DNA from: Clostridia bacterium
GTDB taxonomy: Bacteria > Bacillota > Clostridia > TANB77 > CAG-465
Length of the DNA stretch: 64,000 nt
NCBI GenBank assembly: GCA_030524345.1
Contig: JAUNGP010000001.1
Location: forward strand, 62,001 to 126,000
Direction of reading: 5' to 3'
A program made the translations under genes and the position numbers. The number at the start of each line of letters is the position of its first letter. The first letter of the stretch is position 1. The notes below the pieces were generated by a model. That model saw nothing but the letters and a program-made list of their open reading frames with translations, ran no database searches and had not been told where the DNA came from. This document shows positions 38,167-58,541 of the stretch, piece after piece.

Positions 38167-40233
38167 TTAATGTGAATCACTCTTTCCAAATAATTCATCA
38201 AATTTCTTTTCTAACTCAATTTGAAGATCAATATCTGTAGCAGCTCCAGAAGATTTATTAGTATTACTTGATACATTTGATGTAGTAGTATTCTGATTTG
38301 TCTTTGGTACAGAATTAATAATTGGTCCACTAATCGGTTCCTCTATCTCTACTTTTGGTCCTACTGCTGCTTTTGAAGGTACGGCTTGTGGTCTTGATGG
38401 CATTGTAATATCACTATCAATATTAACATCCATACTTCTTGCTCTCATTTTTTCTGCAAGTCTTCTTTTAGTATCCTCAAGATGCTTTTGAACATCCATG
38501 ATCTTTATTGGAAGTATTTCAGTTTTTGGCATTTCCTTAATATCATGTATTTCAAACTTTTTAGCATTATCTCTTTCAGGATGGTATTTATAATACCAAG
38601 CCTTTTTAGCTTTAATAGGTCTTAAACCTCTAACAATAATAATTTCTTCGTTTGGATCTAAACGTTTTAATTCATCAACAGTCATAAGTTCTCTACCTTG
38701 ACGCTGTTCGCTAACAGAAACGCCTTGTTTTGTTTTTCCATCTTTATCTTTACTAACAGATTTACTCTGTATTTTAATTGTCTTTTGTCCTAAACTCTTT
38801 GAAAAATACTCACAAGTTTTGATAGACTGACTTCCTAAAAACAATTGCGTATCGCAGTTACCGACAATTGTTTCAAAATTATCTTTATATAAAGACTCTA
38901 GTTGGTCTAATGCCTGAATAACAATTGATATACTAATACCCATACTTCTTGTAACACTTAGTTTTCTTTCAAAATCTGGGATTTGACCAATATTTGCAAA
39001 CTCATCTAATAAGAAATATACCTGATTATTCAACGTACCGCCATTTCTATCTGCTTGTAAAAATAACTTTTGTAGCATTTGTGAAAAGAACATTGTTGAA
39101 ACAAAATCATAAGTACTATCAGAAGTTGAAGTTATAACATAAATAGCAAGCTTTTTCCTTCCCAAGTCATCAAAATTGATATTATTTGATGTTGTTATTC
39201 TTTGCATTGCAGGAGTATCAAATGTACTAATTTTAGATATTGTAGATATAATGATACTTTGCATTGTTTTATCAGCAGAAGTAGCAAAGTTTTCGTATTC
39301 TTTTCTACCTGGGTGTTCTGGTTTTAATTCTTCTAAAAATATCTTTTTAAATACTTCTCCATCTGCTCCACCAGCACGAATGATATTAAGACAGCTAGAT
39401 ATATTTCTCTCTTCTGGTGGTAATACGGAAATAACATAGTAAATACAAGCCTTTATTAACATTTTTGCAGTATCATCCCAGAAAGTATCACCTGTGGTAC
39501 CAGCACCTTTTTTTGCACCGACAACTAATGTTTCAGCTAAAACATCAATGCTTTTATTATCAATAATATGTGATAAAGGGTTATATCTATCACTATACTC
39601 AGGATTTACTAAGTTAAAGGCTTTTACTTCATACCCTCTTGATTTTAAAAATCCAGATGTTTCTCTAAATAGTTCCCCTTTAGGATCTGTAATAACATAT
39701 GAGCCTAAAGTTTGCAAAATATTAGGTTTGATATAACAAGCAGATTTACCAGTACCAGAACCACCAATGACAAGTACATTTTTATTAATTAATACTTTTT
39801 TCAAGTCAGTTCCTAAATAATGATCTCTACTTAATATAAAGCCATTTTTTCTATTTAAAATTTCTTTTCCATCAGATAACTTTTTAAATTCTTCTCCATT
39901 TTTACTCCAGTCACTTGAACCACTTTCAATTCCATCATAATCACTTGATTCATTCTTTTTCATTTTATATGCTATATAAAATCCAAAAAATATTAAAAGT
40001 GTAAAAAGTGATGCTTTTAAGAAAAATCCAAAATCAGAGAAAATTCCACTAAAGAAACTAAAACTTGTAATGGCTGGCAATAAATTATTAAACACTGCCG
40101 TAAGTATGTTTTCATCTTCACCAACATGACTAACCGCAAACGTCAAAGCGCCTATGAATATTATATCAAATATTACATAGGCGATTAATAATGGTTTTAT
40201 TTCTCTTTTTAAATCTTCAAAAAAATTTCTCAT
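38167..40233 (-). CDS. VirD4/TraG-type coupling ATPase
   Basis: 688 residues. Seen: two N-terminal membrane helices, a Walker A VLVIGGSGTGKSACYIKPN, the following block VITDPKGELFRETSGFL (Walker-B-like Asp), RYNPLSHI, and the second motif YFLLDEFANIGQIPDFERKLS with the typical QALDQLESLY. The last 120 residues are Pro/Thr/Asn-rich. Family knowledge: VirD4-type ATPases recognise and pump DNA or protein substrates at type IV secretion channels. No relaxase, VirB4 or mating-channel gene is next to it; the preceding genes are two unknowns. It matches conjugative-element coupling proteins most closely. Confidence 0.92.
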   Translation of the reverse strand: MRNFFEDLKREIKPLLIAYVIFDIIFIGALTFAVSHVGEDENILTAVFNNLLPAITSFSFFSGIFSDFGFFLKASLFTLLIFFGFYIAYKMKKNESSDYDGIESGSSDWSKNGEEFKKLSDGKEILNRKNGFILSRDHYLGTDLKKVLINKNVLVIGGSGTGKSACYIKPNILQTLGSYVITDPKGELFRETSGFLKSRGYEVKAFNLVNPEYSDRYNPLSHIIDNKSIDVLAETLVVGAKKGAGTTGDTFWDDTAKMLIKACIYYVISVLPPEERNISSCLNIIRAGGADGEVFKKIFLEELKPEHPGRKEYENFATSADKTMQSIIISTISKISTFDTPAMQRITTSNNINFDDLGRKKLAIYVITSTSDSTYDFVSTMFFSQMLQKLFLQADRNGGTLNNQVYFLLDEFANIGQIPDFERKLSVTRSMGISISIVIQALDQLESLYKDNFETIVGNCDTQLFLGSQSIKTCEYFSKSLGQKTIKIQSKSVSKDKDGKTKQGVSVSEQRQGRELMTVDELKRLDPNEEIIIVRGLRPIKAKKAWYYKYHPERDNAKKFEIHDIKEMPKTEILPIKIMDVQKHLEDTKRRLAEKMRARSMDVNIDSDITMPSRPQAVPSKAAVGPKVEIEEPISGPIINSVPKTNQNTTTSNVSSNTNKSSGAATDIDLQIELEKKFDELFGKSDSH

Positions 40234-47955: not shown

Positions 47956-50412
47956 TTATTCTTCTATATTTTCTTCCTCTGTTGGTAGCTTTGCAATGTT
48001 AATTACTTTTCCACCATCTGAAGTCCTCATAAGGGTAACACCTTGCGTATTTCTTCCAAGTACACTAATATCTTTTACATTGATTCTTATAACAATACCT
48101 GTATCAGTAATCATCATGATATCATCATCATCATTTACAATTTTTACCCCAATTATATGGCCTGTTTTAGCTGTAGTTTTATAAGTAAGTACACCTTTAC
48201 CGCTTCTTCCTTGTCTTCTATACTCCTCTATTTCAGTACGTTTTCCAAAACCATTTTCAGTTATTGCAAGTATATATCCGTTTTCATCACTAATAGGCTC
48301 CATACCTACAACTTTATCATCCTTTGATAATGTAATTCCTTTAACACCCATAGATGTTCTTCCTACAGCCCTTACATCTTCTTCAGTAAATCTTATAGAT
48401 AATCCACTTCTTGTTACCATTACAATATCATTAGATCCATCTGTAAGTCTTACATCTATTAACTCATCATCTTCTTTTAAGGTTATACCTTGGATACCTG
48501 TCTTTCTGATATTACTATACTCAGAAAGTTTTGTTTTCTTGATCAGTCCATTACGTGTAGCCATTAGAACATATAGATCTTCATTATAATCTTTAACTGG
48601 TATAACAGCAGCAATCTTTTCACCTTGTGCAAGTTGTAATAAGTTTACAATTGCTGTTCCCTTAGCTGTTCTACCCGCCTCTGGTAACTCATATGCTTTC
48701 AATCTAAATGCCCTACCATTATTTGTAAAGAACATAATATAGTCATGCGTAGATGTAACAAAAAGATGTTCTACAAAATCTTCTTCACGAGTATTCATAG
48801 CAGTAAGACCCTTTCCACCACGTCTTTGACTTCTATACACATCAGCAGCTATTCTCTTTACATACCCAAAGTGAGTAAGGGTTACTACATTCGTTTCTTC
48901 TTTTATAAGACTTTCTATATCAATGTCTCCCTCGCCATGAATTATAGCAGTCTTTCTTTCGTCCCCATAATTATTTTTAATTTCTATTAATTCTTGTTTT
49001 ATTATATCTTTTACAAGCTGCTCAGAAGCAAGTATTTCATTTAAATGTTTGATTAAATCTACTAAACTATTATACTCATCCTCAATTTTTTCTCTTTGTA
49101 ATCCCTGTAAAGTTCTAAGTTTCATTTCAAGAATTGCTGTAGATTGCACTTCTGATAATCCAAAAGATTCCATAAGCCTTTGTTGTGCATTATCATAAGA
49201 CTCTCTAATGATTTTAATTACCTCATCTATATGGTCTATAGCGATTCTTAAACCTTCTAAAATGTGAACTCTAGCTTCAGCTTTTTTAAGATCATATCTA
49301 GTTCTTCTAATTATTACGTTTTCTCTGTGTTTTATATATTCTGCAAGTATCTCTCTTAAAGCGAACACTTTAGGCTTACCATCCACCAAAGCAAGCATTA
49401 ACATACTTTGTGTTGTTTGTAATTGAGTATGTTTATATAACATATTTAGAACAACATTTGGATTTGCATCTTTTTTTAATTCAATAACTATTCTTAAACC
49501 TTCTCTATCAGACTCATCTCTTAAATCTGATATTCCCTCAATAGTCTTTATTTGAACTAATTTAGCTATATTTTCTACAAGAGCAGCTTTATTTACTTGA
49601 TAAGGAATTTCTGTAACTATAATCTTATATCTTCCCCTATTATCTTCTTCTATTTCAGCTTTAGACCTTACACATACTTTTCCCCTTCCAGTGGTGTATG
49701 CGCTTCTAATTCCTTCTTTACCAACAATAATACCTGCAGTTGGAAAATCGGGACCTTTTATATATTCCATCAATTCTTCATTAGTTATATCCGGATTATC
49801 TAGTTGGGCTATAGTTCCATTTATAACTTCAGTAAGATTATGAGTTGGAATATTACATGCCATACCAACAGCAATACCATAAGAACCATTAATTAGCAAG
49901 TTAGGCAGTTTTGCTGGCAGAACAGAAGGCTCTTTTAATCTATCATCATAATTTGGTACAAAATCTACTGTTTCCTTATCCAAATCAGCAAGCATTTCAA
50001 GAGATATTTTATGAAGTTTTGCTTCTGTATACCTCATTGCAGCAGGAGGATCATTATCAATAGAACCAAAGTTACCATGTCCATTTACAAGAGGATATCT
50101 TAAAGAAAAGTCCTGAGATAAACGAACCAAAGCATCATATATAGCAGAATCACCATGTGGGTGATAATTACCCATAACATCACCAACGATACTTGCTGAT
50201 TTTCTAAACGGTTTTTCAGGCCATAAAGAAAGTTCATTCATTACATACAATATTCTTCTTTGTACAGGTTTCATTCCGTCTCTTACATCAGGCAAAGCAC
50301 GTGATACAATAACACTCATGGCATAGTCAATGTATGATCTTTTCATTTCTTCTTCTATTTTTACTGGTACAATTTTTTGTGCCGATAAAAAGTTTTCATC
50401 ATTAATGTCCAT
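47956..50412 (-). CDS. gyrA: DNA gyrase subunit A
   Basis: 818 residues. Seen: the N-terminal winged helix/tower start ([29 protein letters not shown]), the active-site region [22 protein letters not shown], catalytic Tyr in AMRYTEAKL, and six beta-pinwheel repeats. The GyrA box QRRGGKG is present, which separates it from ParC. gyrB is not in the window. Promoter TTGCTT-N17-TATAAT (50442-50470) precedes the gene. Confidence 0.97.
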
Positions 50413-52674: not shown

Positions 52675-53691
52675 TTAACCATATATTTTTTTCTTCTTTA
52701 ATCTTATATCCTCTCCTACAAATTTACATATTGTAAAACTACCAATCAATCTTGACATTACTCTTTCATCATATTCTTTATATAACTCTTTTAAAGTCAA
52801 ATTGGTAGAAATAAGCATTTTTTTGTTCTTCAATAGTCTAGTATTTATAATATTAAATAATTCAGTAAACTTATTGTTACTCATTGTTTCAGTACCCAAA
52901 TCATCGATGATTAACAAATCTACATTAAATATTTTATTATATTGTTCTTTTTCTAACCCAGTTTTATTATACGAAAATTTATATTCTATGACTTTATCCA
53001 TTAATACTGGTGCAGTTTGATACACAACTGTCTTTCCTTGTTTAATAACTTCGCTTGCAACACAATTAGCAAGAAATGTCTTTCCAAGTCCAGTATTTCC
53101 AACAAATAATAAATTTTTTTGCCCAGGATTATTAATATTTTGAGAAAAATAATAAGCTATATTTCTTATATTTTCTATATTTTCCATAGGAGATTTCTCT
53201 ATCCCATATTTTTCTCTGTCAACATTTTTGGAATAAAATCCAAAATCAAATGTGTCAAAGTTTTCCTCCTCTAATTTATATATATTAACTTGCTTATATG
53301 TCTCATTTATCATTGCTTGTGAAAAGCAATTGCACATACTATAATTATTTTCTTTGACAACAACTCCTGTATCTTTACATTTTTCACATTCAAATTTCGG
53401 TTCAAAATCTTTTTTAGTTATTCCTATTTTTTTAAGTTCTCTTTCATATTTTTTTTCAAGTTTTTGCAATTTAATTGCTAAATTTTCTTGTTCGATTTGT
53501 CTTGTTAAATTATCAGAAATCAGTATTGTTTTTGTCGTTTTTATTGCAATTAAATTTATTTCATTTTCGATTTCACCCAAAATAGGGTATTTTGCATAGA
53601 TATCATCTTTATATCTTTTTGATTTTTCTATTGCGAGTTGTCTTTTCAAATCGTATTCTCTTTTTATTTCTCTGTATATACTACTATCCAT
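52675..53691 (-). CDS. dnaI: Primosomal ATPase, DnaC/DnaI-type helicase loader
   Basis: 338 residues. Seen: a long helical N terminus (KRQLAIEKSKRYKDDIYAKYP) with a zinc-like CEKCKDTGVVVKENNYSMCNC, then an AAA+ ATPase with Walker A FVGNTGLGKTFLANC, Walker B LLIIDDLGTE and sensor region STNLTLKELYKEYDERVMSRL. Matches DnaI-type loaders that place the replicative helicase. It follows dnaD by 21 bases in the conserved dnaD-dnaI order. Confidence 0.9.
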   Translation of the reverse strand: MDSSIYREIKREYDLKRQLAIEKSKRYKDDIYAKYPILGEIENEINLIAIKTTKTILISDNLTRQIEQENLAIKLQKLEKKYERELKKIGITKKDFEPKFECEKCKDTGVVVKENNYSMCNCFSQAMINETYKQVNIYKLEEENFDTFDFGFYSKNVDREKYGIEKSPMENIENIRNIAYYFSQNINNPGQKNLLFVGNTGLGKTFLANCVASEVIKQGKTVVYQTAPVLMDKVIEYKFSYNKTGLEKEQYNKIFNVDLLIIDDLGTETMSNNKFTELFNIINTRLLKNKKMLISTNLTLKELYKEYDERVMSRLIGSFTICKFVGEDIRLKKKKIYG

Positions 53692-53712: not shown

Positions 53713-54669
53713 CTATACATTATCATAAAATGACTCAATATCATCGTATTCTCTTTGCTCATAATTTTGATATTTAGGTTTCGCTTTACTAGAACTTTCT
53801 TTACTGCTTTCAGTCCCAATGCCTTGACCTTCTTTTTTAATATCCTCCAACGTTTTATAACCTTTTTTATGCCAACTTGAAAGAATTGCATCTACATACT
53901 TTAAAGAAGGATTAGATTTAGCAACAGTTCTTTTCAATGCCTCTTCGATTATATTAAATTCATATTTATATTCCTTTATCCAAGTATCTATATACTGCTC
54001 TTCGTATTTTGTAAAATTACGATTTAGTCTTAAGGCTTTTTGGATTTTCTGCTTTATCTTTTGAATATTATCATAACTTTCTAAAAATTCCTCAAGTTGT
54101 TCAAAAGTCTTTACTCCTCCTCTATACCAATTTTCTGCTACTGCATATACATACTTTCTATTTAAAGCTTTTCTTTCTCTACAATAATGAAAAAGTGCTA
54201 TCATAACCTCTTCTGAAAAAGAATAATTCTTAAATAATGTTCCAATATCAGTATACCAACCAAGTGACATAATACCTTGAAAAAAACTTTCGTTGATAGC
54301 AGAAGCTGCAGCCATTCTTTTCCTTTCAAGTTCTGATTGTACTCTATTGACTTTTGGCTCCATTTTAGGTATATATGATTTATTAACCTCTACATCTTTT
54401 AAATCTACTACTATGAATCCCTGAGAAGTTTTAGTAATCAATTCTTCAGCTTGCAAAACATCTAAACTATTAGATATCTCAGCCTCTGTAACCCCAAGTT
54501 GCTTTGCAAACTCTGATATTTCTAATTCCATCTTATTTTTTAAAACAAATAGGATATATAGATACAATTTAATATCAATACCTTGTAAAGAATTCATATA
54601 ATTTAATATAAATAAGTCTGATATACTTGTGTCACTAAGTTCCATTTTATTTTTTGATACGAATTTCAT
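53713..54669 (-). CDS. dnaD: DnaD-family replication initiation protein
   Basis: 318 residues. Seen: an N-terminal winged-helix region (ELEISEFAKQLGVTEAEISNSLDVLQAEELI) and the DnaD/phage-associated C-terminal domain (YDNIQKIKQKIQKALRLNRNFTKYEEQYIDTWIKEYKYEFNIIEEALKR... YVDAILSSWHKKGYKTLEDI). Primosome protein that acts with DnaI and DnaB. The type IV-like cassette lies 76 bases upstream in the same direction. Confidence 0.9.
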   Translation of the reverse strand: MKFVSKNKMELSDTSISDLFILNYMNSLQGIDIKLYLYILFVLKNKMELEISEFAKQLGVTEAEISNSLDVLQAEELITKTSQGFIVVDLKDVEVNKSYIPKMEPKVNRVQSELERKRMAAASAINESFFQGIMSLGWYTDIGTLFKNYSFSEEVMIALFHYCRERKALNRKYVYAVAENWYRGGVKTFEQLEEFLESYDNIQKIKQKIQKALRLNRNFTKYEEQYIDTWIKEYKYEFNIIEEALKRTVAKSNPSLKYVDAILSSWHKKGYKTLEDIKKEGQGIGTESSKESSSKAKPKYQNYEQREYDDIESFYDNV

Positions 54670-54745
54670 AAAAAATTTCTCCCATTAAAATCTTTCCTAT
54701 AATGCTCAATTATATCATTACTTTCAAATTTTTACAATATATTTA

Positions 54746-55072
54746 TCACTTATATCTCTCATTTTTCATCTTGATAAATTTCATATCAACATAGATTCCT
54801 CTATGCATCATAAAAGTTAATATTGATAAGATAACATTAATAGCACTCTCATTATTAACATTTACAATGATAATAGAAATAATAGGTACTGTTAAAAATA
54901 AAAAAATATATACAGATTTTTCCAAAGCTATATTAGCTATATCTAATAGATTAATTACGATAAATATATAAATCAAGATAACACACAACGACTTATAATC
55001 TATTATTCCTAACCATTTACTACTTCTTTTATAAGTTGTATATAATATTTTTTCATTTATTTTATTTCTCAT
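54746..55072 (-). CDS. Small membrane protein, VirB3/PrgI-like by position and form
   Basis: 108 residues. Seen: a basic N terminus with YKRSSKWLGIIDYKS, two adjacent hydrophobic segments (LCVILIYIFIVINLLDIANIAL and SVYIFLFLTVPIISIIIVN) and a cytosolic basic end. This short two-helix form is like VirB3/PrgI proteins of type IV systems, but there is no diagnostic motif; the assignment rests mainly on the neighbouring genes. It ends the cassette 2 bases after the preceding gene. Confidence 0.55.
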   Translation of the reverse strand: MRNKINEKILYTTYKRSSKWLGIIDYKSLCVILIYIFIVINLLDIANIALEKSVYIFLFLTVPIISIIIVNVNNESAINVILSILTFMMHRGIYVDMKFIKMKNERYK

Positions 55073-55074
55073 TT

Positions 55075-55893
55075 TTAATTACCTCCAACTATTTTTGCAA
55101 ATATACTACTTATAAATGAATTTATTTTATATAGTAAATAAAGTGATCCTATCAATATTACTTTATACATTGGAGATTTTAAATCTTTATATACAATTGG
55201 TATAAGGATGATTAATTTAATAAAAATTTGCATAGATAAATTCACGATCAATGTTTTTAACCACATTTTAGAAAAGCCACTTGTTATATTACTACAAAGC
55301 CCTATTATAGCAAAGGGAGAGATCAATAATAATATAACCACAGTAACATATCTAATTGAAAGTGTGATAAGAATCGATATTGATCCCAAAGAAACCATAC
55401 TTTTCAAAATCCCTTCAATACTTAAAAAATCACTTTTTTCAATATTTTCTATTTGATATATATTTTCTTTTAACATAGAAAATGTTATTTCTTTGTTTGT
55501 ATAACTTTGACAAAAAATATCCACTCCACTTGATATTCCATCAAATATTTTAAGACATATTCCACAGATAAAATAACTATTATTTACAAGTATTCCAATT
55601 ACAATAATTCTAATTAGGAAATGATATATATTCTCTACATTCTTACCATTATATATACTAATAATCTGTGTTAATACATAGTGTAAAACATATAGAAGGA
55701 TTAGTGCATTTGCAAGTATTACTATTCCATTTAATTCACCTTCTACATAGAAATATTTCAGAGGCTCTTTTGTTAAAATATCTGGTTTTACATCAATAAT
55801 ATTATCAAGTATATCATATACTTCTTTTTCAAGTACTTTAAATATTTTCTCCGAAAACATATTTAAATTACTTATAATATCTTGTTCTTTCAT
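55075..55893 (-). CDS. Polytopic membrane protein, VirB6/TrbL-like
   Basis: 272 residues. Seen: an N-terminal helical region, then about six hydrophobic segments (GIVILANALILLYVLHYVL, IIVIGILVNNSYFICGICL, ILITLSIRYVTVVILLLISPFAIIG, KTLIVNLSMQIFIKLIILIPIV), including the RYVTVVILLLISPFA type of segment common in VirB6/TrbL channel proteins. Start shares one base with the preceding stop (TAATG). Channel component by analogy; no enzyme motif. Confidence 0.65.
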   Translation of the reverse strand: MKEQDIISNLNMFSEKIFKVLEKEVYDILDNIIDVKPDILTKEPLKYFYVEGELNGIVILANALILLYVLHYVLTQIISIYNGKNVENIYHFLIRIIVIGILVNNSYFICGICLKIFDGISSGVDIFCQSYTNKEITFSMLKENIYQIENIEKSDFLSIEGILKSMVSLGSISILITLSIRYVTVVILLLISPFAIIGLCSNITSGFSKMWLKTLIVNLSMQIFIKLIILIPIVYKDLKSPMYKVILIGSLYLLYKINSFISSIFAKIVGGN

Positions 55894-56222
55894 TATTTAA
55901 GAATTGTCTCTATAAATTTAATTATTAGATTTAAAGATAAAATGATGCCATAACAAAATATTGCATTTATGATTACTTTTTTTCCAATACGCATCTTTTC
56001 TTCATCTCCAAAACTAAATTTTCTAATTAAAGCTCCAGAAGCTATTGCAACACCTGCTGCAGGTGTTGATAGTTTAACTAAATATCCTTGAATCTCTTTT
56101 AATGCTGTATTTAGTTTGTTAACGAGAGTAGGATCTGTTTTAGCATACACATTATTACCAAATATAAAAAGAACAAACAAAAATAAGGAACAAAATATAA
56201 ATATCTTTTTTCTTTCACTCAT
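55893..56222 (-). CDS. Small exported membrane protein, VirB2-like pilin candidate
   Basis: 109 residues from the ATG at 56222 (GGAG 8 bases upstream). Seen: a signal peptide (FIFCSLFLFVLFIFGNNVYAK), a short loop with KLSTPAAGVAIASGALIRKF, then a second hydrophobic helix (VIINAIFCYGIILSLNLIIKF). Short signal-peptide proteins with two helices are the usual form of VirB2/T4SS pilins. Its overlap-type coupling with both neighbours supports one functional unit. Confidence 0.6.
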   Translation of the reverse strand: MSERKKIFIFCSLFLFVLFIFGNNVYAKTDPTLVNKLNTALKEIQGYLVKLSTPAAGVAIASGALIRKFSFGDEEKMRIGKKVIINAIFCYGIILSLNLIIKFIETILK

Positions 56223-56227
56223 TAGCA

Positions 56228-58051
56228 TCACTCCAATCTTTTTAAATAACCTTTTTTATATAATTTCATATTTTTACCATCTGATATTAATAAAACTGCC
56301 TGAAAAGTTTCTAATACCATAGTAAAATAATTTTCATTAAATATGTATTCATCTTTTTCAGAAAATGAAATTCCTTTTGCAATTGATGATCTATCATTTT
56401 TGAAATGATTTGTCATTATACTAAAGCTAGTATTTTGGGCGTTTTCTGAATAGTTAGTAGTCTTTAAATCTTTTATTTCCTTCCCAATCTGCTTTATTAT
56501 TTCATTGACAGTATAAAGATCATCATTTCTAAACCATATTTTATTAACCAAGTTTTGAATTATAACCCTAGTGGCATATTCATTATTTAAAGTATTTAGA
56601 AGAGAACTATAACTTTGCATACTTATCACATTAATACATTTATACTCTCTTGAAAGCGAGAAAAAATGAGCATCTTCTACATTTGCAATTTCTTGATATT
56701 CATCACATATGAAAAAAACTTCTTTCTTGAAATAAATCTTAGATAAAATTTGTTTTTGAAAATCCAACTTTAAATAGGTTGCTATTATCTTTAATAGTTT
56801 TCTATTCTCACCTATATTGATAGATAAAACATAAATATTGTTATAAAAATCAATATCATCACTCTTTCTACAAAACTTTTTATATAGTAAATTATCAGAT
56901 ACAAAAATACTTGTTATTCTTGTAATTTCAGATTTGATAATTCCAATTGTTCTATCATCTAATTTTAAAAATTCATTTTTTATATTTAATATAGCAGCAT
57001 TAATATTAAATAATTCATCATCCTTAAATTGATTTTTTAATATTTTCTCCTTTATATGATTAATGCTATCCAATAAATACTCCTTTTCATTCACAAGTCT
57101 GTGTATCTCATAAAAATTTACAATTAAGCCTTTTGCTCGAATAATCGTTATAAAATCACTTAAGAAACTTTCTACTTTATCAAGCCAATAGGAATCTGAA
57201 TTTTTTGTATCTGATAATAAGGTAAGCACTAGTTTAAGCTCACTTGCAATTTCTATACTAGATTTATTAGGTTTATCTATTGGATTATATTTAAAGTCAT
57301 TATCTAAAGATATTTCTACTACATTAACAGATATATTATTTTTAGAGATAATGCTCTTTAAGTTTTGTACATAATTTCCTTTTACATCAATTATTAAACC
57401 CAAAATATTCTTTTTTACTAATTCTAATACTATATTGGAAATAGCTGAACTAGTCTTACCACTACCTATGCTTCCAGTTATCAATATATTTTGAAATATA
57501 CCATTATTTTTAATACATATGTTGTCATCGTTTTCATCTTTCCCTAAAAATATTTTTAAATCATTATCTTCTGATGTGAAATTGACAGATTTTTTATCAA
57601 TATAGTATGACATAAAATTATATATCATATTAATTGTAAATAAAGAAAAAAATATAAAATAAAGAATTTTAAAAATAAAGAAATATTTCCCTAACATAGA
57701 TGAAATATCTATATTTTTTGAAAAAATTGTTATATATAAAAAATTAGATTTTATAAAATTGTAACTAAAAGCAATTTTAATTATTAAAACATTGATATAT
57801 ATAATAAATGTAATATATATCTTTCTTGGTGATATCCATGACCTTATAGAATTAATAGAATAAAAATATTTAGAATAAAACTTTTTATTTTTTGTATCAT
57901 CTAAGTTGCTAGTTATATTTGGCAGATTACTATTTATATACTTATCTAATTTTGCTCCACTTCTATTAAGTATAAATAGCTTATCAACGAGAGAATATAA
58001 CTTAAAGATTAAAAAGATAAAATATGCAAGAAATTCTATAATGTAAAACAT
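56228..58051 (-). CDS. VirD4/TraG-like ATPase of a compact type IV-like cassette
   Basis: 607 residues. Seen: four hydrophobic segments in the first 150 residues, Walker A NILITGSIGSGKTSSAIS (about residue 190), LGLIIDVKGNYVQNLKS, NPIDKPNKSS (a short, changed NPL box), and VFFICDEYQEIANVEDAHFFSLSREYKCINVISMQSYSSL, the TraG/VirD4-type second motif. It differs from the 38167-40233 ATPase (different length, four instead of two membrane helices). First gene of a four-gene run with coupled starts. RBS GGTGAT. Probable energising ATPase of the cassette (inference). Confidence 0.85.
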   Translation of the reverse strand: MFYIIEFLAYFIFLIFKLYSLVDKLFILNRSGAKLDKYINSNLPNITSNLDDTKNKKFYSKYFYSINSIRSWISPRKIYITFIIYINVLIIKIAFSYNFIKSNFLYITIFSKNIDISSMLGKYFFIFKILYFIFFSLFTINMIYNFMSYYIDKKSVNFTSEDNDLKIFLGKDENDDNICIKNNGIFQNILITGSIGSGKTSSAISNIVLELVKKNILGLIIDVKGNYVQNLKSIISKNNISVNVVEISLDNDFKYNPIDKPNKSSIEIASELKLVLTLLSDTKNSDSYWLDKVESFLSDFITIIRAKGLIVNFYEIHRLVNEKEYLLDSINHIKEKILKNQFKDDELFNINAAILNIKNEFLKLDDRTIGIIKSEITRITSIFVSDNLLYKKFCRKSDDIDFYNNIYVLSINIGENRKLLKIIATYLKLDFQKQILSKIYFKKEVFFICDEYQEIANVEDAHFFSLSREYKCINVISMQSYSSLLNTLNNEYATRVIIQNLVNKIWFRNDDLYTVNEIIKQIGKEIKDLKTTNYSENAQNTSFSIMTNHFKNDRSSIAKGISFSEKDEYIFNENYFTMVLETFQAVLLISDGKNMKLYKKGYLKRLE

Positions 58052-58059
58052 ATTTCATC

Positions 58060-58089
58060 ACCATCGCCATTCTAGCATGTCTTTTTACC
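58060..58089 (-). promoter_or_regulatory. Possible promoter of the type IV-like cassette
   Basis: TTGAAA, 17 bases, TAGAAT on the minus strand about 20 bases upstream of the ATPase start. Transcription would begin only about 13 bases before the ATG, so this is uncertain. Confidence 0.4.
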
Positions 58090-58166
58090 TTTTTCAACTA
58101 TTTTCTTGAAATTTTACAAAAAACAACAAAACTTCTACTTTTTCGACATTTTTCACACATTTCATA

Positions 58167-58292: not shown

Positions 58293-58368
58293 GGGCCATT
58301 AGCTCAGTTGGCAGAGCACTTGACTTTTAATCAAGTTGTCCGCAGTTCGAACCTGCGATGGCTCACCA
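58293..58368 (+). tRNA. tRNA-Lys (TTT)
   Basis: Acceptor GGGCCAT/ATGGCTC, anticodon loop CTTTTAA, T-loop GTTCGAACC, encoded CCA. Confidence 0.96.
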
Positions 58369-58375
58369 TAAAATG

Positions 58376-58450
58376 GGCCCGTTGGTCAATCGGTTAAGAC
58401 ATCGCCCTTTCACGGCGGAGTGAGGAGTTCGACTCTCCTACGGGTCACCA
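58376..58450 (+). tRNA. tRNA-Glu (TTC)
   Basis: Acceptor GGCCCGT/ACGGGTC with discriminator A and encoded CCA; anticodon loop CTTTCAC (TTC). Confidence 0.95.
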
Positions 58451-58465
58451 TTTTATATGTTGTAT

Positions 58466-58541
58466 GCTGGAATAGCTCAGCTGGTAGAGCAACGGTCTTG
58501 TAAACCGTAGGTCCTCAGTTCGAATCTGAGTTTCAGCTCCA
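58466..58541 (+). tRNA. tRNA-Thr (TGT)
   Basis: Acceptor GCTGGAA/TTTCAGC with discriminator T and encoded CCA; anticodon loop CTTGTAA (TGT). Confidence 0.95.

Follow-up and report, generated by a model that had tools for sequence, protein, structure and literature searches.

In nearly all known cases, the function of Gram-positive type IV secretion systems (T4SSs) is one-way DNA transfer (PMC12857230). T4SSs that lack the VirD4 coupling protein are known to serve in DNA uptake, as adhesive pili or in protein export by other routes (PMC12857230). The archaeal Ced and Ted systems, composed of CedA, CedA1, CedB and CedD and of TedA-C, respectively (PMC9905601, PMC11868833), import DNA by means of a pilin and of VirB6-like and VirB4-like proteins, with no relaxase recognised; MinD/ParA genes lie near those of Ted, and Ced/Ted loci are split in some species (PMC9905601). 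The ComB system of Helicobacter pylori requires a VirB11 ATPase that is encoded apart (PMC13395361). Here, we analysed a 64,000-nucleotide stretch of a Clostridia bacterium genome, hereafter the window (bases 62001-126000 of contig C36; genome of 1.71 Mb in 39 contigs, 99.85% complete), in which a cassette of four T4SS-like genes precedes dnaD and dnaI. We conclude, with a probability of about 0.8, that this cassette is one half of a domesticated, chromosomally fixed T4SS the genes of which are split between an operon beside dnaD and a second locus, referred to as locus B. That a split T4SS of this kind, relaxase-less and origin-proximal, is fixed in an order of Clostridia is well supported. 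An earlier reading of the window from its letters alone (the sequence-only reading) had proposed an undescribed system; as far as the searched open-access literature shows this holds, since no earlier account of a T4SS conserved in this way among Clostridia was found there.

With Ced and Ted, the clostridial system shares a VirB2-like pilin, a VirB6-like channel, VirB4-type ATPases, a chromosomal and domesticated status and the lack of a relaxase; its parts are split between loci, as they are in some species with Ced/Ted, and its VirB4 N-domain is set apart, a domain that in Ced is divided between the two proteins CedB and CedD. In contrast to the archaeal systems, it is bacterial and retains a candidate VirB3, usually VirD4 and, in part, VirB11/TadA; the CedB profile (NF041017) gave a score of 43.3 bits, where its cut-off is 700, which places the ATPase outside the CedB family, and there is no sign of LexA damage control. 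The likeness to H. pylori ComB (PMC12857230, PMC13395361) lies in the set VirB2, VirB3 (here a candidate), VirB4 and VirB6, in a VirD4 that is not needed, in the lack of a relaxase, in the presence of ComEC and in a VirB11-type ATPase whose gene lies away from the rest. ComB, however, works in a diderm and includes VirB7-VirB10; a Pfam/NCBIfam scan confined to the proteins of the two clostridial operons recognised none of these, and import, a proven phenotype of ComB, is here predicted from genes. The T4SS of Patescibacteria (PMC12102498) is likewise monoderm, lineage-fixed and devoid of a relaxase, with a VirB2-like pilin and a split VirB4 (TrsD + VirB4), and it too is origin-proximal, near dnaA/dnaN; the clostridial genes are found close to gyrB/gyrA, and in one genome recF and dnaN lie past gyrB. 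It differs from the present system in phylum, in a layout that here faces dnaD-dnaI and gyrA, and in the VirB11/TadA-, TadB- and MinD-like partners found here; the two clostridial operons contain neither a recognisable pilin array nor a recognisable hydrolase. From the conjugative MPF-FATA T4SSs of Firmicutes (CD1110/CD1115 and PrgI families), with which it shares the VirB4 ATPase group, a VirB6 homologue and a candidate VirB3/PrgI homologue, the system is set apart by the absence of a MOB-P relaxase from the genome, by vertical inheritance and by a fixed chromosomal site. Since both the relaxase searched for and mobility fail, it is not a conjugative element.

The cassette consists of four minus-strand open reading frames (ORFs) of 607, 112, 272 and 108 aa, running from 58051 to 54746 and spaced by -4, -1 and +2 bp; dnaD follows 76 bp on and dnaI another 21 bp on, so that the arrangement described in the sequence-only reading (four linked genes, then dnaD and dnaI on the same strand) was confirmed. 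Its genes are the following:

56228..58051, minus strand: virD4-like coupling ATPase, 607 aa, with N-terminal hydrophobic helices
55893..56231, minus strand: VirB2-type pilin, 112 aa, with PF18895 and TrbC matches
55075..55893, minus strand: VirB6-like polytopic membrane protein, 272 aa, with an AlphaFold model and an order-wide family
54746..55072, minus strand: candidate VirB3/PrgI-like small membrane protein, 108 aa, with a profile chain to PrgI

The assignments made earlier for the four proteins all survived, on Pfam matches for VirD4 and the pilin, on AlphaFold/PDB comparison for VirB6 and, tentatively, on a weak profile chain for VirB3. The VirD4-like protein matches PF10412 (5e-12) and PF12696 (1.5e-7), and both its Walker A (GSIGSGKT) and Walker B (FFICDEYQ) motifs are intact in the window's genome. 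Its distant matches in Acidobacteria, Verrucomicrobia and one gammaproteobacterium (L034-L042) lie in different gene neighbourhoods; searched with the same protein, plasmids gave weak partial matches only and phages none. The pilin matches the T4SS_pilin family PF18895 (5.1e-7; 30.1 bits, cut-off 26.6), which identifies it as a VirB2-type pilin, as well as TrbC (1.1e-4), and displays a signal peptide with a VYA end and two hydrophobic helices separated by a charged RKFSFGDEEK loop. The remaining two proteins have no Pfam family. In the case of the 272-aa protein, an AlphaFold (AF2) model (pLDDT 79.5, pTM 0.73) retrieved TrwI/VirB6 of R388 as each of its five best PDB matches (Foldseek probability 1.00, E 1.5e-2), with a VIA-align Z of 10.5 over 231 residues, a value that for a helical bundle is inconclusive alone; because all top PDB matches were VirB6 and given the operon context, we read this protein as VirB6. 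The AF2 model of the VirB3-like protein was too weak for a structure search. The profile of its family matches the protein directly before VirB4 in another Clostridia genome (L179; E 1.3e-7), which in turn matches PrgI at 6.9e-5, a weak score under the curated cut-off. Compared directly with an 81-aa protein of L033, a metagenome-assembled genome (MAG) contig labelled Symbiobacteriaceae, it gave no match.

The sequence-only reading had seen no VirB4 and accordingly allowed for a minimal VirB4-less device. The absence proved to be an artefact of the window's edge. Although a search of the genome with the PF03135 profile did not detect VirB4, a CD1110-type profile and direct protein search revealed a VirB4-like ATPase of 583 aa (VirB4-B) at C36:153788-155536, on the same contig as the cassette, 34 kb distant from it and 28 kb past the window edge, which refutes a device without VirB4. 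Locus B, in which it lies, is ordered as a VirB4 N-domain gene (about 140-214 aa), the VirB4 ATPase, a MinD/CpaE-like ATPase and further genes, among which a VirB11/TadA-like ATPase occurs in 15 genomes, usually with a TadB-like protein. The operon, with VirB4-B, was found in 35 of the 36 genomes of the window's family. VirB4-B matches the solved VirB4 structure 4ag5 (1.1e-34) and can thus be classed as a VirB4 ATPase; its counterpart in G043 matches the CD1110 profile at 2.9e-85. The N-domain gene, which adjoins VirB4 in 34 genomes as a separate TrsD would, matches VirB4 N-termini and TrsD (NF041427, 7.8e-9, under the curated cut-off of 200 bits). With VirB4, VirB2 and VirB6, the system is a member of the T4SSs. 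A conserved protein of ~240 aa without significant Pfam match (L071:8910-9659 and homologues) is the last gene product of the VirB4 operon in nearly all genomes of the family and is likewise found there in genomes of two related families, f3 and f5.

How the two loci belong together is illustrated by L033, which holds all parts in a single cluster: ParB-like, VirD4, pilin, VirB6, C39 peptidase, VirB3-like and an unsplit VirB4, followed by a 422-aa protein, RcpC, MinD-like, TadA and TadB-like proteins. In profile comparisons, VirB4-B aligned collinearly with residues 201-793 of the 798-aa L033 VirB4 (E 1.6e-44), whereas residues 27-86 were matched, weakly, by the small gene of locus B (E 4e-4). 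It therefore looks as if the cassette and locus B represent opposite ends of a single ancestral cluster. The earlier suggestion of a system halved between two loci is thereby upheld as to the split; the partner it had named, the VirD4 at 38-41 kb of the window, has to give way to the operon of VirB4, MinD-like and VirB11/TadA-like genes.

Related families show the two halves closer together. In all 20 of the VirB6 loci fetched from f3 and f5, the cassette context was kept as far as contigs and ORF calls allow, in the order virD4-pilin-virB6-virB3, then dnaD-dnaI unless a contig end or a few intervening genes came between; where fragments were long enough, this run usually points at gyrA. Behind gyrA, on the opposite strand, lie the genes for the ~240-aa protein, the MinD-like ATPase, VirB4 and the VirB4 N-domain, and in the seven genomes measured 6.3-11.8 kb separate VirB4 from virB3. 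The two operons of f3 and f5 thus point towards each other from either side of dnaD-dnaI and gyrA, and locus B has moved away in the window's genome. The stretch in G048 reads gyrB, VirB4 N-domain, VirB4, MinD-like, ~240-aa protein and gyrA, and that in G128 continues past gyrB to recF and dnaN (gyrB, recF and dnaN were identified by eye from the sequences); the system there thus sits among replication-origin genes. Relatives had been predicted to carry both VirB4 and a relaxase beside the cassette if it were a simple degraded element; VirB4 is indeed nearby across gyrA in f3 and f5, but no relaxase was seen beside these genes.

Because identical genes in identical order recur across the family and the order, the cassette is not a chance assembly. 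Of the order's 385 genomes, 316, representing 44 of its 48 genera, matched the VirB6 profile, almost always in single copy, and no strong match was found in the sampled genomes outside the order. Within the family, VirB6 is present in 33 of 36 genomes, and the gap in the other three (G001, G030 and G031) is probably one of assembly since the neighbouring dnaD is absent from them too. The cassette sits at a single syntenic site in almost every genome read, with no variable insertion of the kind expected of a mobile element. Tree distances in the family correlated between the cassette and dnaD+dnaI (r 0.73), between VirB4 and dnaD+dnaI (r 0.92) and between the cassette and VirB4 (r 0.80), each at a Mantel p of 5e-4, and ratios of non-synonymous to synonymous substitution (dN/dS) in close pairs were 0.06-0.41 in the cassette and reached 0.44 at most in locus B. 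Within the window's family, the parts are thus vertically inherited under purifying selection. The MOB-P relaxase family (PF03432), the only relaxase family searched genome-wide, is absent from the window's genome. PF03432 is likewise absent from 26 of the 36 family genomes and present in 10, away from the cassette locus, and no relaxase was seen at the cassette or locus B.

The cassette virD4 is present in 19 of the 36 family genomes and gone from 13, all of which retain virB6-virB3-dnaD-dnaI and all but one the pilin gene; G004 carries a virD4 remnant of 64 aa. As the 13 virD4-less genomes group as a single clade in the tree of dnaD+dnaI, one loss event is probable, and since TadA/TadB are missing from their sisters G000 and G007 as well, VirD4 was probably lost after TadA and TadB. 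The cassette VirD4, the receptor for exported substrates, is thus dispensable. Co-occurrence of TadA and VirD4, being confounded by phylogeny, was not used as evidence. In the virD4-less clade, a putative structured RNA of ~200 nt occupies the vacated virD4 space directly 5' of the pilin gene (L081-L092 and L121-L123, e.g. L082:4978-5213). It comprises 23 pairs in two long-range helices, with 96% of cells paired and two-sided changes at 9 pairs vs 2.9 in shuffles; no Rfam match was found for this stretch in the loci scanned, and a cis-regulatory RNA of the pilin operon is possible. A DUF3800-I RNA (RF02969, E 1.3e-8) lies near the G024 cassette at L092:350-479.

The other VirD4 of the window (38167-40233) was rejected as the missing half: it belongs to a different, CD1115-type subfamily, scores above cut-off in 36 of 36 family genomes and lies in a neighbourhood of core genes (dnaX, recR) in which no genes of integrative conjugative elements were recognised. 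A second chromosomal T4SS, with TrbC/VirB2-like pilins, PrgI-like and VirB6-like proteins and a VirB4 split into 474 and 685 aa, was observed at L070 (G000:C6, about 16-28 kb), and its VirB4 was found in about 28 of the 36 family genomes; the version in G029 includes a 1279-aa multi-domain cell-wall hydrolase. The CD1115-type VirD4 is possibly the coupling protein of this L070-type system.

The features neighbouring the cassette are these:

54709..54737, minus strand: predicted dnaD promoter, extended -10 (TTGTAA-17-TATAAT with TG), conserved
53713..54669, minus strand: dnaD (DnaB_2, 2.4e-30; synteny), probably its own transcription unit
52675..53691, minus strand: dnaI/dnaC-type helicase loader (NF005304, 9e-98; synteny)
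58069..58097, minus strand: likely cassette promoter (TTGAAA-17-TAGAAT with TG)
47956..50412, minus strand: gyrA, directly behind which the VirB4 partner operon lies in f3 and f5

An extended -10 promoter (TTGNAA-17-TGNTATAAT, with minor variation) is predicted immediately 5' of dnaD, in the intergenic space that separates it from virB3 where these two genes adjoin; 30 of 32 genomes have it, shuffled sequences giving an expectation of 0.5, and none was found upstream of virB6 or virB3 (0/32). Upstream of virD4, a promoter-like site scored 11 or more in 6 of 17 regions vs 0.25 expected. On these predictions, dnaD-dnaI is probably a neighbour with separate expression, and the fusion to primosome genes proposed in the sequence-only reading is not borne out. 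The proximity of cassette and dnaD marks a chromosomal place and is not proof of joint function. Genes for tRNA-Lys, tRNA-Glu and tRNA-Thr lie just upstream of virD4 on the opposite strand (window 58293-58541), and 11 relatives also have tRNA-like sequence ahead of the cassette, perhaps as the trace of an ancient integration site; around the cassette system there is no sign of an originating mobile element.

From these genes we infer assembly as one machine, formation of a pilus, a DNA cargo and its direction. The widely kept core comprises the pilin, VirB6, the candidate VirB3, the split VirB4 and the MinD-like ATPase. In the mechanism that we propose, the VirB2 pilin, once processed, would be assembled by the split VirB4 motor on a platform of VirB6 and VirB3 in the membrane; VirB11/TadA and TadB, where present, would act as an accessory drive. 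The resulting pilus or channel would cross the single membrane and the wall, and chromosomal DNA would be taken up or exchanged between neighbouring cells, in the manner of Ced in archaea and of DNA uptake by ComB in Helicobacter, the final membrane step possibly being carried out by ComEC. DNA uptake or exchange is our first, tentative choice of function because the part list is near those of Ced/Ted and ComB, because VirD4-less T4SSs have precedents and because ComEC (PF03772) is encoded in 36 of 36 family genomes. It is possible, and put forward with similar reserve, that the whole order imports or exchanges chromosomal DNA through this origin-proximal, domesticated conjugation machine, VirD4 having become secondarily dispensable. 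Several observations weigh against our reading of the locus and its function. All genomes compared are draft assemblies. ComEC also occurs in 10 of 14 control genomes without such a T4SS, and its support is accordingly weak. The pilin profile gave no confident match in the PDB, and it is a chain of weak matches that ties the 108-aa protein, weakly, to VirB3/PrgI. In G033, the cassette is present and VirB4-B was not found, and neither VirB8 nor a cell-wall hydrolase was recognised in either operon. Upstream of the cassette there are no LexA boxes; LexA control was therefore rejected, and nothing points to a damage response like that of Ced. Finally, since the CD1115-type VirD4 could stand in, the loss of the cassette VirD4 does not exclude export.

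Among the alternatives, a surface pilus without DNA transport, in which the VirB2-VirB3-VirB4-VirB6 core would form a pilus for adhesion or signalling, like the one proposed for Bartonella Trw, and in which genomes of the VirD4-less clade would retain the pilus function alone, is unlikely but comes second in our ranking of functions. The retained core of pilin, VirB6, VirB3 and VirB4 could suffice for it with VirD4 dispensable, the Tad-like partners are pilus-assembly proteins and adhesive pili are among the VirD4-less systems reviewed in PMC12857230; yet each cassette has a single pilin, the core of which is well conserved, with no variable pilin array, and VirD4 is retained in most other lineages looked at. 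We regard as somewhat less likely the export of proteins or chromosomal DNA, with a VirD4, its own or the CD1115-type, feeding VirB4/VirB6 after the models of the Streptococcus suis 89K T4SS and gonococcal DNA release. In most genomes read the operon begins with VirD4, and a second VirD4 is family-wide; both observations would fit such a role, against which stand the loss of VirD4 once with the rest kept and the failure to see any recurrent effector-like gene beside either operon.

Two further explanations would tie the locus to mobile elements. The chromosome might keep a helper channel that relaxase-bearing elements of some strains exploit, in keeping with the relaxases of 10 family genomes; this is improbable, as several such elements come with a VirB4 of their own, encoded on the same contig, and a host benefit able to keep the channel order-wide is not evident. 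Most doubtful of all is the remnant of an integrated conjugative element heading for loss. The adjoining tRNA cluster, the broken cassette copies in G003, G019 and G028 and the complete cluster of the relative L033 speak for it, but VirB6 is order-wide, the site is syntenic, trees follow species within the family with dN/dS below 0.45, ATPase motifs are intact in the window's genome and no relaxase was seen beside the cassette. The simple degraded element that the sequence-only reading had held out as its own refutation was thus rejected, and the remnant is largely refuted.

A domesticated, split T4SS remains our preferred explanation. An order of bacteria with small genomes seems to have made a T4SS a fixed cellular organ among its replication genes, which renders testable what role such a machine has once no mobile element is served, and which subunits functions other than export need. 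If true, DNA uptake or exchange by this system would make it a Gram-positive counterpart of Ced and ComB.

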